Below are positions 12,803-64,000 of a stretch of DNA of 64,000 bases, one piece after another. The notes below the pieces were generated by a model. The model searched no databases, had not been told where the DNA came from, and worked only from the letters and a program-made list of their open reading frames with translations. The first letter of the stretch is position 1. The number at the start of each line of letters is the position of its first letter. The position numbers and the translations under genes are program-made. This DNA is from a bacterium. Lineage in GTDB: Bacteria > Ratteibacteria > UBA8468 > B48-G9 > DSTR01. The stretch covers positions 1 through 64,000 of the forward strand of contig JAKPFT010000052.1 in assembly GCA_029551285.1 (NCBI GenBank), written 5' to 3'.

Positions 12803-14524
12803 ATGGCAGAGCAATTTAACCCCGAAGCTTACTGGCATACCTCCTCACACATTCTCGCCCAGGCGGTGAAAAGACTTTTTCCCGAAGTAAAGCTGGGTAT
12901 TGGCCCGGCTATTGAGAAAGGCTTTTACTATGATTTCTTCCGGACAACGCCTTTCACTCCGGAAGACTTGAAACGGATTGAAGCCGAGATGAAGCGGATT
13001 ATTGAGGAGGACTTGCCGATTGTCCGGCAGGAGATTTCCAAAGAACAGGCCAGACAAAAACTGAAGGAAGAACCTTTCAAATTAGAACTTTTGGAAGAAA
13101 TTCCTGGAGAACAGGTCACCTTTTACCAGCAGGGCGATTTCACTGACCTTTGCCAGGGGCCACATCTGGCCAGCACCGGTGCGGTGCGTCACTTCAAGCT
13201 TCTTTCTGTGGCTGCCTCTTACTGGAAGGGAGATGAAAAACGCGAGAGTCTCCAGCGCATCTATGGAATTTCCTTCCTGGAGAAAAAAGATCTGGATGAT
13301 TATCTTCACTTCATTCAGGAGGCGAAGGAAAGAGACCATCGCACCCTGGGTGTGAAACTGGATCTTTTCAGCCTCCATCCGGAATACGGTTCTGGCCTTA
13401 TTTTCTGGCATCCGAAAGGGGCCCTGGTCCGGAAGGTCATTGAAGATTTCTGGAGGCAGGTTCACCTTCAAAACGGTTACCAGTTACTTTACACCCCGCA
13501 TATTGCTGACCTGAGCCTCTGGGACTGTTCCGGACACACCTCCTTCTACCGGGAAAACATGTTTCCGCCGATGGAACTGGAAACCGGGCAACAAATCCAG
13601 TTAAAACCGATGAACTGCCCTTTCCATATTCTTGTTTACAAGAACTGCCGGCGCAGTTACCGGGAACTACCCCTGCGCTGGGCGGAGCTGGGGACAGTCT
13701 ACCGGCTGGAAAAGCAGGGGGTGCTCCATGGACTGCTCCGGGTCCGCGGTTTTACCCAGGATGATGCCCACATTTTTTGCACACCGGAGCAACTGGAAGA
13801 AGAAATCGGGAAGATTATCCAACTGGTCTGTTACTTTCTGAGTCGCTTTGGCTTCAAGGATTACCTGGTCTTTCTTTCCACCAGACCGGAGAAGTACGTG
13901 GGCAGCCTGGAAAACTGGGAACGAGCCACGGCCGCGCTGGAAACCGCGTTAAAACAACAGCATCTTACTTACCAGATTGACCCTGGAGCCGGTGTTTTTT
14001 ATGGTCCCAAGATTGACATCAAGATTAAGGACTGTCTTGGCCGCGAGTGGCAGTGTTCTACCATTCAGGTTGATTTTAATATTCCGGAAAGGTTTCAACT
14101 CTCCTATGTTGACCCTTCCGGACAGCAGGTCCAGCCGATTATGATTCACCGGGCCATCCTCGGCTCGTTAGAGCGCTTCTTTGGCGTATTGATTGAGCAC
14201 TACAAGGGCAACATGCCGCTCTGGCTGGCGCCAGTCCAGTGCCGGATACTGCCCATTGCGGACAGGCATCTTGACTACGCTCGGTCGGTCCAGGAAGTGT
14301 TAGGGGAAGATTTCAGGGTGGAAGTGGACGAACGCAATGAAAAAATCAACCGGAAAATTCGTGATGCTGAAGAGGAAAAAATTCCGGTGATGCTGATTGT
14401 GGGAGATAGAGAAGTAGAGAAAAAATTGGTTACCGTACGCTGGCACGGCCAGACTAATCAGGATCAGTTTTCCGGGGAACAGTTGAAACAGGTTCTGAGG
14501 GAAAAAGTAAGCCGTTATGAGTAG
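12803..14524 (+). CDS. thrS: threonyl-tRNA synthetase lacking the TGS domain
   Basis: Charges tRNA-Thr. The protein has 573 residues against about 640 for E. coli ThrRS. The missing part is the N-terminal TGS (N1) domain, as the sequence begins directly at the editing domain (WHTSSHILAQA). The editing site is complete: H12, H16, C117 and H121 correspond to the HxxxH and CxxxH zinc-like cluster. Catalytic-core zinc ligands are also present (KPMNCPFH, DDAHIF, MIHRAILGS), and motif 2 is RVRGFTQDDAH. A C-terminal anticodon-binding domain follows. No in-frame upstream start that would restore TGS is visible. It heads a cluster with infC-rpmI-rplT. Confidence 0.96.
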   Translation: MAEQFNPEAYWHTSSHILAQAVKRLFPEVKLGIGPAIEKGFYYDFFRTTPFTPEDLKRIEAEMKRIIEEDLPIVRQEISKEQARQKLKEEPFKLELLEEIPGEQVTFYQQGDFTDLCQGPHLASTGAVRHFKLLSVAASYWKGDEKRESLQRIYGISFLEKKDLDDYLHFIQEAKERDHRTLGVKLDLFSLHPEYGSGLIFWHPKGALVRKVIEDFWRQVHLQNGYQLLYTPHIADLSLWDCSGHTSFYRENMFPPMELETGQQIQLKPMNCPFHILVYKNCRRSYRELPLRWAELGTVYRLEKQGVLHGLLRVRGFTQDDAHIFCTPEQLEEEIGKIIQLVCYFLSRFGFKDYLVFLSTRPEKYVGSLENWERATAALETALKQQHLTYQIDPGAGVFYGPKIDIKIKDCLGREWQCSTIQVDFNIPERFQLSYVDPSGQQVQPIMIHRAILGSLERFFGVLIEHYKGNMPLWLAPVQCRILPIADRHLDYARSVQEVLGEDFRVEVDERNEKINRKIRDAEEEKIPVMLIVGDREVEKKLVTVRWHGQTNQDQFSGEQLKQVLREKVSRYE

Positions 14525-14537
14525 CTGGCCGGTAAAT

Positions 14538-14566
14538 TTGACGGGATTTCTCAAAAAAGGTAGACT
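14538..14566 (+). promoter_or_regulatory. possible promoter of infC-rpmI-rplT
   Basis: TTGACG (14538-14543), 17 bases, TAGACT (14561-14566), in the thrS-infC spacer. The predicted start is about 30 bases before the proposed infC start. The -10 is weak. Confidence 0.35.
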
Positions 14567-14602
14567 TATAAAGCTAAACTGAATTCATCACAAGGAGAAG
14601 CC

Positions 14603-15133
14603 ATCAGCGAGCGATGGCCCAGAGATAGTCTGAAGAGATACAGGGTTAACTTTCAGATACGGGTTCCACAGGTTCGTCTTATCAGCAACGATGGTTCTCA
14701 GCTGGGGATTATCAGCCGGGACCAGGCGTTACGGATGGCTCAGGAAAAAATGTTAGACCTGGTGGAGATTGTGCCGACAGCCAGTCCGCCCATCTGCCGG
14801 TTAATGGATTACAAGAAGTTTCTGTACGAACAAAAGAAAAAGGAAAAGGAATTAAGAAAGAAACAGCGCCTGATGATTTTGAAGGAAATCAGGATGACAC
14901 CTGAGACCAGTGAACATGACTATCAGTTTAAGAAGCAGCATATTGAAGAATTTTTGAAAGAGGGACACCGGGTGAAAGTTACCATTTTTTACAAGGGTCG
15001 TGAAATTCTGCATAAAGAACGGGGCTACCAGCTCTTAGAACGTATTGTCAAGGATGTGTCCGCTGTGGGAAAGGTGGAGAGGCCAGCCAGATTGGAAGGA
15101 CCCCGGCTTTCTCTAAACCTTGTTCCGCTATAA
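14603..15133 (+). CDS. infC: translation initiation factor IF-3, starting at an AUC codon
   Basis: IF-3 binds the 30S subunit and polices start-codon choice. The first in-frame ATG (14735) would remove the N-terminal domain. The conserved IF-3 N-terminus (RVNFQIRVPQVRLI, then GSQLGIISRDQAL) is encoded upstream of it in the same frame with no stop. AAGGAG at 14593-14598 lies five bases before ATC 14603, giving a normal 176-residue protein. The C-terminal domain (KEIRMTPETSEHDYQFK, HRVKVTIFYKGRE) is canonical. IF-3 discriminates against such codons, so the gene is probably self-repressed, as established for the AUU start in E. coli. Other near-cognate starts cannot be excluded. Confidence 0.93.
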   Translation: MSERWPRDSLKRYRVNFQIRVPQVRLISNDGSQLGIISRDQALRMAQEKMLDLVEIVPTASPPICRLMDYKKFLYEQKKKEKELRKKQRLMILKEIRMTPETSEHDYQFKKQHIEEFLKEGHRVKVTIFYKGREILHKERGYQLLERIVKDVSAVGKVERPARLEGPRLSLNLVPL

Positions 15134-61974: not shown

Positions 61975-62798
61975 TGAAAATCAGTGTTTATTCGCTGTCC
62001 ACCGCGGACAGAAAACCTGCCGAGGTGGTCGCTCTGGCTCAAAAATACGGGTGTCAGGGTGTGGAGTGGTGGTGTAAGGAAGGCGGCCATGTTGATTGCC
62101 ATAACCTGAAAGCCTCAGTTAGAGAGGTGGAAAAACTGATGAGGGAATCTGGTCTGGAAACAGTTGGGCTGGACCCGTACTTCCGGTGCGTGGAATCGGC
62201 GGCGGAACTGGAACCATTTTTTTCTGCGGCCCGGATACTGGGTGCCAGAAAGATAAGGTCTCACAGCTTCCCCTATCAGGCTGGCGCGGATGTGCTGGAA
62301 TTGTTGAAAAAACTGCGGGACTGGCTGGGGGAGGTAGTACTACCTCTTGCTCGCCAGTATCAGGTGCAGTTTCTCATTGAACAGCATCACTATGCTGTCT
62401 GCTGTACGCCCAATGCCTGCCGCCAGGCAGTGGAAGGGTTGCCGGCTGAGTATCTCGGGATTATCTATGACCCGGGAAATTCTCTTTACGAAGGCTATAC
62501 CCGACCGGAATATGCGGTCAACGTTCTTGGAAAATATCTGGCTCATGTCCACGTGAAGACCGCCTGTCCGGTACTTGAGGCTGCATCTGTACCGGCCGGT
62601 CGCCGCTACGGCCTTGTTTTTGGAAGGCTCCAGGACGGAGACCTTGACTGGGAAGCCACGCTGGCCGCGCTCCAGAAGGCAGGCTACGCCGGGTTTCTTT
62701 CTCTGGAAGCGCTGGACAAGCGCGATTCTGAGGCCAAGTTGAGGGAAGACATCCCGGTTTTGAAGAAGGCTCTGGAGGCTATCTCTCAGAAAACGTAA
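61974..62798 (+). CDS. sugar phosphate isomerase/epimerase-type TIM-barrel protein
   Basis: 274 residues from ATG 61974, after AAAGGAG; the open frame begins far upstream inside cstA. Features of the xylose-isomerase-like barrel superfamily: YGCQGVEWW at strand 2, FLIEQHHYAVC (Glu metal ligand), GIIYDPGNSLYEGY (Asp), LAHVHVKTA (His) and GFLSLEALDK (final Glu). Metal ligands are all present. Members include IolE/IolI-type inosose enzymes and tagatose/ketose epimerases; the sugar cannot be specified. Confidence 0.85.
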   Translation: MKISVYSLSTADRKPAEVVALAQKYGCQGVEWWCKEGGHVDCHNLKASVREVEKLMRESGLETVGLDPYFRCVESAAELEPFFSAARILGARKIRSHSFPYQAGADVLELLKKLRDWLGEVVLPLARQYQVQFLIEQHHYAVCCTPNACRQAVEGLPAEYLGIIYDPGNSLYEGYTRPEYAVNVLGKYLAHVHVKTACPVLEAASVPAGRRYGLVFGRLQDGDLDWEATLAALQKAGYAGFLSLEALDKRDSEAKLREDIPVLKKALEAISQKT

Positions 62799-62803
62799 GC
62801 GCC

Positions 62804-64000
62804 ATGGAAAAACTTCTTTTCCGCAGCACCAACCACCAGGCGCCGCTGGCCAGTTTCCGTGAGGTGCTGTTACGCGGCCAGGCGCCTGATTACGGGTTGT
62901 ATGTACCGGTGAGTTTTCCGGTTCTGACCCCTGAAGAGATGGCTTCGTTTTCTTCAGCGAGCTACGCTAACATCGCCACCGTGGTTCTGAGAAAGTTCCT
63001 CCAGGGAGAAATGGAAGAGCAAGTCCTGGAGAAAATAGCCGGGGAAAGTTACAACTTTGACGTTCCCCTGATTGAGGTGGAAAACGGTCTTTACCTGTTG
63101 AGGCTGGACCGGGGACCAACGGCTTCCTTCAAAGATTTTGCAGCGAGGATGATGGCCAGACTGATGCATTATTTTGCCGCGAGGGAAAACCGGCGCCTGA
63201 CGGTTCTGGTGGCCACTTCTGGTGATACCGGCGGCGCAGTGGCTGCTGCTTTTTACGGACTGGAGAACGTCTCGGTGGTTGTTCTTTTTCCGGAGCAGGA
63301 AGTAACCTCCAGACAGAGACGCCAGATGACCACGCTGGGCAGGAATATTCTCGCCGTGGCGGTCAGGGGCAAGTTTGATGACTGTCAGGCTTTGGTCAAA
63401 CAGGCTTTCAACGACCCGAAACTGGCCGGTCTGAACTTGACCTCGGCTAACTCCATCAATTTTGGCCGTCTCTTGCCACAGGCGGTTTACTATTTTTATG
63501 CCTGGTCACGGGTGGCCGGAGACGGAGTTGTTTTTTCCGTTCCTTCCGGAAATTTTGGTAATCTTTGCGGGGGTGTCCTGGCCAGAAAAATGGGTTTGCC
63601 GGTGCGCAGGTTTGTGGTCGCGGTTAACGAGAATGACGAGTTTCCCCGGTTTCTAAAAACTGGCCACTACCAGCCGGTGGTGCCCTCGCGGCAGTGCTCC
63701 TCCAATGCTATGAATGTTGGCCATCCCAGTAATTTAGCGCGGCTGGTTGACTGGTACGGCGGCTGGCTGACGGATGAAAGAGATGAACAGGGCAGAGTTC
63801 TCCGGCAGGGTTGTCTGAAGAAGCCGCCGGATATGGAGAAAATGCGGGCAGATTTCCTTTCCTTTTCCATCAGTGAGGCTGAAGTGGACGAAACCATCAC
63901 CTCTGTTTACCGAAGGTATGGACTGGTGCTGGAACCCCACGGAGCGGTAGCCTTCCGGGCCGCACAGAAAGCAGATCTTTCCGGACCACTGGTCGTTCTG
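62804..64000 (+). CDS. thrC: threonine synthase, 3' end beyond the window
   Basis: PLP-dependent conversion of O-phosphohomoserine to threonine. 399 codons are visible, open to the last base, so the C-terminus is off the window. The N-terminal cap (FRSTNHQAP, PVSFPVLTPEEM) and PLP lysine GPTASFKDFAARMM are typical of the longer class, as are VATSGDTGGAVAAAF, SANSINFGRLLPQAVYYFYAW (by position about 210-230), VPSGNFGNL and LEPHGAVAF. It begins five bases after the epimerase stop. Confidence 0.96.
   Translation, partial: MEKLLFRSTNHQAPLASFREVLLRGQAPDYGLYVPVSFPVLTPEEMASFSSASYANIATVVLRKFLQGEMEEQVLEKIAGESYNFDVPLIEVENGLYLLRLDRGPTASFKDFAARMMARLMHYFAARENRRLTVLVATSGDTGGAVAAAFYGLENVSVVVLFPEQEVTSRQRRQMTTLGRNILAVAVRGKFDDCQALVKQAFNDPKLAGLNLTSANSINFGRLLPQAVYYFYAWSRVAGDGVVFSVPSGNFGNLCGGVLARKMGLPVRRFVVAVNENDEFPRFLKTGHYQPVVPSRQCSSNAMNVGHPSNLARLVDWYGGWLTDERDEQGRVLRQGCLKKPPDMEKMRADFLSFSISEAEVDETITSVYRRYGLVLEPHGAVAFRAAQKADLSGPLVVL

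Follow-up and report, generated by a model that had tools for sequence, protein, structure and literature searches.

The question raised by this locus is where translation of infC, the gene encoding IF3, begins in a member of the Ratteibacteria that we analysed over a window of 64,000 nucleotides (64 kb). On the plus strand, direct reading places the nearest upstream in-frame stop of the infC frame, a TAG, at 14561-14563, and this stop rules out a longer frame. Reading the in-frame codons from the TAG onwards, we found no ATG, GTG or TTG before the ATG at 14735-14737, which agrees with the statement of the initial annotation that no such start preserves the N terminus of IF3. The sole strongly Shine-Dalgarno-backed codon ahead of the IF3 N-domain in this frame is the ATC at 14603-14605. 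It stands behind an AAGGAG at 14592-14597, from which it is separated by the five-nucleotide spacer AAGCC (14598-14602), and the AAGGAG pairs with the anti-Shine-Dalgarno sequence ACCUCCUUA at -8.5 kcal/mol. The spacing and the frame of this element had been described correctly in the initial annotation, which placed it one base too late. From the ATC the coding sequence runs through 176 amino acids and a stop codon (14603-15133, plus strand). Judged by its start region, infC would be a gene with an AUU, AUC or AUA start and without a usable canonical one.

The 16S rRNA tail was read from a sister genome (L217), where it ends in GGATCACCTCCTTTCA, because the 16S rRNA of the window itself lacks its 3' end. 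This gene lies at 1-1459 on the minus strand, and its 3' tail is missing at the contig end. AAGGAG followed after five nucleotides by ATC occurs twice on the plus strand of the 64-kb window and not at all on the minus strand, and pairing of -8.5 kcal/mol or stronger is found ahead of 23 of the 1704 ATC triplets on both strands of the window (1.3%). That AAGGAG and ATC stand together at infC by chance is untenable, because the arrangement is conserved across the phylum.

The protein read from 14603 is a complete IF3. A profile search matched it to TIGR00168 over residues 11-175 with 201.4 bits (cutoff 60), and both IF3_N and IF3_C were found as well, the IF3_N match covering positions 1-69 of the 70 in the profile. 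Aligned pairwise with E. coli IF3, it shows 74 identities in 180 columns; of the residues important in E. coli IF3, Y75 and Y70 are kept, but R99 is replaced by T and R131 by K, which counts against the reading of infC proposed below. Translation could instead begin at the ATG at 14735, yielding a shortened IF3. This ATG is the first canonical start of the frame and the one that a standard ORF caller reports, and it lies exactly 132 bases downstream of the ATC, as had been noted. However, a start there would cost 44 residues, including the first 30 of the 70 IF3_N positions, and the codon has only poor Shine-Dalgarno pairing (-4.0 kcal/mol). The codons upstream of it are conserved in relatives, and no locus of the phylum has a canonical codon 4-9 nucleotides after its strongest Shine-Dalgarno sequence. 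We therefore rejected this ATG, with its truncated IF3_N and poor Shine-Dalgarno sequence, and regard a shortened IF3 as very unlikely. The earlier wording that such a start would delete the N-domain is right about the truncation and too strong about its extent, because only the first 30 IF3_N positions are cut and positions 31-69 remain. The genome holds one infC match, and no second copy with a canonical start was found in it.

To place the ATC in its phylum, we compared 35 genomes of this Ratteibacteria/Omnitrophota-type MAG phylum. The search found infC in 29 of them (loci L001-L028 and L111) and not in the other six, which are 62-90% complete. In-frame ATG, GTG, TTG, ATC, ATT, ATA and CTG codons were ranked by anti-Shine-Dalgarno pairing, and the best supported candidate was ATC, ATT or ATA in all 29 loci, with one tie with GTG. 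A single codon was called as ATC in 20 loci, as ATT in two and as ATA in one; the ties were ATC/ATT (two), ATA/ATT (two), ATA/ATC (one) and ATC/GTG (one). ATC is thus among the best candidates in 24 of the 29 loci, and no locus offers a clear canonical start. A second, codon-blind test took the strongest Shine-Dalgarno sequence of each locus and then recorded the in-frame codons 4-9 nucleotides after it. ATC, ATT or ATA was present in 25 of the 29 loci and ATG, GTG or TTG in none, and ATC was found in 19 loci compared with 1.7 expected from local codon use. From the upstream stop to residue 17, 22 of the 29 loci have no ATG, GTG or TTG at all. The canonical codons in the other seven show pairing of -3.6 kcal/mol or weaker, with the exception of one GTG in L026 (-7.8 kcal/mol, or -9.7 kcal/mol with the spacing that the ranking allowed), which ties with ATC. 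In a tree of the infC proteins from 28 of the 29 loci, ATC is the prevailing start; five changes occur, all of them between ATC, ATT and ATA, and no lineage switches to ATG. Tied loci were labelled by hand for this tree (L003 and L028 as ATT; L009, L026 and L027 as ATC) and L111 was left out. For rplT, our control, the same caller returned ATG in every locus (28 of 28). For rpmI, which was found in 15 of the 28 loci searched, it returned ATG in 13, ATT in one and no call in the last. Applied to E. coli K-12, the script gave ATT behind ggagg for infC, in line with the AUU start previously claimed for that species and also stated in PMC5472188. The initial annotation had named, as the finding that would speak against its proposal, a relative whose canonical start lies at a different conserved site. 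None of the 29 loci shows one, and in each of them an ATN codon follows the Shine-Dalgarno sequence. Sequence and comparison show the codon, its Shine-Dalgarno sequence, the absence of any canonical alternative and the retention of an AUN codon throughout the phylum.

The same comparison bears on two other readings. The ATC may be an internal isoleucine codon, with the true start at another noncanonical codon upstream, such as the CTG at 14579, which is in frame after the stop; isoleucine codons would also vary among ATC, ATT and ATA without becoming ATG. However, this CTG has no Shine-Dalgarno sequence (-0.1 kcal/mol), and with any upstream start the AAGGAG would fall within the coding region. 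The upstream stop is also close: 13 codons separate it from the ATC in the window and five in the sister genome, and in L006 there are none, the TAG directly abutting the ATC, and therefore the ATN codon of that locus cannot be an internal isoleucine. We rejected the CTG for its lack of a Shine-Dalgarno sequence and the nearby stop, and consider an upstream noncanonical start extremely unlikely. It is also conceivable that an ATG was misread as ATC through a sequencing or assembly error, as the source is a draft MAG of 99 contigs. The sister genome, whose protein is 87% identical, carries the same GGAGAAGCC-ATC, and ATC, ATT or ATA stands at this place in all other loci of the phylum, which leaves such an error a practically negligible chance.

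In a wider search, 221 of 232 genomes matched infC. We examined 99 loci outside the phylum, which are not a random sample: 97 are regions chosen among the matches listed, best first, to which L029 and L030 were added, and because of this choice they lean towards closer sequences. Single calls in these 99 chosen loci were ATA in 26, ATC in 25 and ATT in 18; six had ties among ATN codons, one an ATT/CTG tie, three CTG alone and two no call. This gives 75 of the 99 chosen loci with AUA, AUC or AUU starts only. Canonical codons were called alone in 14 of the chosen loci and tied in four, so an AUN start of infC is not universal. The codon-blind test gave ATC, ATT or ATA in 68 and ATG, GTG or TTG in three of the 90 loci with a strong Shine-Dalgarno sequence, which the other nine of the 99 lack. 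A further 59 named contigs outside the phylum, highly redundant (Acidobacteria, Poribacteria, Bacteroidetes), gave ATC in 23, ATA in 21, ATT in six, GTG in three, one ambiguous call and five without a call. ATA and ATT calls with 10-11-nucleotide spacing in Bacteroidetes contigs are unreliable. In the chosen loci outside the phylum, AUA is about as frequent as AUC as an infC start, and both are more frequent than AUU. Because all three codons are common, conservation applies to an AUN codon other than AUG and to no single codon. On these start calls, an AUN start of infC is a widespread rule, and AUC is one form of it.

In the window, infC lies between thrS (12803-14524) and the genes rpmI for L35 (15153-15353, PF01632) and rplT for L20 (15370-15726, PF00453), all on the plus strand, and rpmI and rplT both have ATG starts. 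The thrS product contains tRNA_SAD, the class II synthetase core and the anticodon domain. As read, this ThrRS begins near the editing domain, no TGS domain was found among its Pfam matches, and its ATG has no Shine-Dalgarno sequence. We examined 70 long stop-to-stop ORFs in the window. A strongly Shine-Dalgarno-supported ATC, ATT, ATA or CTG precedes the first canonical start in two of them, namely infC and a minus-strand ORF at 62957-63505 without a Pfam match; nothing else convincing as an ATN start was seen among the 70. Four start-less minus-strand ORFs gave no Pfam match. At 62343-63505 on the minus strand, two long open frames adjoin each other; neither shows a canonical start within its first 110 codons or matches a Pfam family, and these frames are probably not genes.

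The arrangement resembles that of E. coli infC, with the same thrS-infC-rpmI-rplT order, a noncanonical AUN start and a Shine-Dalgarno sequence at similar spacing. It differs in the codon, AUU in E. coli versus AUC here, and in the gap between thrS and the start, 3 nucleotides there versus 78 here; IF3 autoregulation belongs to the E. coli system and would hold here by analogy. For Myxococcus, too, infC is said to start at AUC. The order infC-rpmI-rplT is also common to B. subtilis (described in PMC3997798), whose operon has an L20 leader attenuator, whereas Rfam matched no L20 leader upstream of infC in the window, whether matches were filtered by the gathering score or by E values up to 1. 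By these scans, the window lacks the structured L20 leader of a leader-controlled infC operon, and they found no other known RNA element near infC. In Streptomyces, a distant phylum, the same gene has the same ATC start according to PMC5472188, so that the AUC start claimed for infC elsewhere is documented. In S. aureus, a noncanonical AUN stands behind a Shine-Dalgarno sequence as it does here; that codon is AUA, mapped by Ribo-Ret, with ribosome-profiling density reported on it in PMC13009471. With AUC already printed for Streptomyces and AUA mapped in S. aureus, the phenomenon is known. We found no survey of infC starts in the open-licence literature; an arXiv paper of 2020 about genes with a preference for non-AUG starts, cited in PMC9845219, may hold one.

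We are highly confident that infC is translated from AUC 14603 by means of the AAGGAG and fMet-tRNA decoding, in a scheme in which IF3 would exert negative feedback as in E. coli. The initiator fMet-tRNA would decode the AUC, and the AAGGAG would position the ribosome. IF3 destabilises initiation complexes on codons other than AUG, GUG and UUG, so that abundant IF3 would lower infC translation and scarce IF3 would raise it. The outcome would be a negative feedback loop in which IF3 limits its own synthesis. PMC5472188 describes such a homeostatic loop, in which IF3 represses noncanonical starts and infC itself begins with ATT in E. coli and with ATC in Streptomyces. For the window, we infer initiation at AUC 14603, an N-terminal fMet and the feedback, and infC is probably autoregulated as in E. 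coli, by analogy with that system.

The region upstream of the AUC contains a possible -10 element, TATAAA (14567-14572, plus strand), with five of six matches and its end 30 nucleotides before the start codon. The promoter scan itself returned a weak match at 14538-14566 (9/12; shuffle mean 0.5) and no strong promoter ahead of infC in the window. The window has TATAAA only, and a perfect TATAAT was found upstream of infC in 17 of the 29 phylum loci versus 3.9 expected (maximum 10 in 500 shuffles, all of them mononucleotide shuffles). In 16 of these 17 loci its 3' end lies 19-37 nucleotides before the start. This suggests that infC in the phylum is transcribed from a promoter of its own, with a very short leader. 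The AUC also lies in the 5' arm of a possible hairpin, GCCAUC-7nt-GAUGGC (14600-14618, plus strand; -7.8 kcal/mol). The sister genome L002 has the same hairpin with another loop sequence (-8.6 kcal/mol), and the sequence pattern of the hairpin is absent from the other 27 phylum loci, being seen in this genus only. Taken in full, the 86-nucleotide fold is unremarkable (z -1.36). Because the arms overlap the shared coding of RWP and just two sequences are available, the hairpin is a lead only. A genus-specific second brake, in which the 6-bp hairpin holds the AUC and infC would need both IF3 scarcity and hairpin opening, seems unlikely to us.

The AUC start of infC is a confirmed, ordinary and well conserved observation. 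It corrects the probable annotation of an essential gene from a phylum without cultured members. Start callers restricted to ATG, GTG and TTG will overlook IF3 or shorten it in many bacteria, and the same annotation problem is stated for Streptomyces in PMC5472188.
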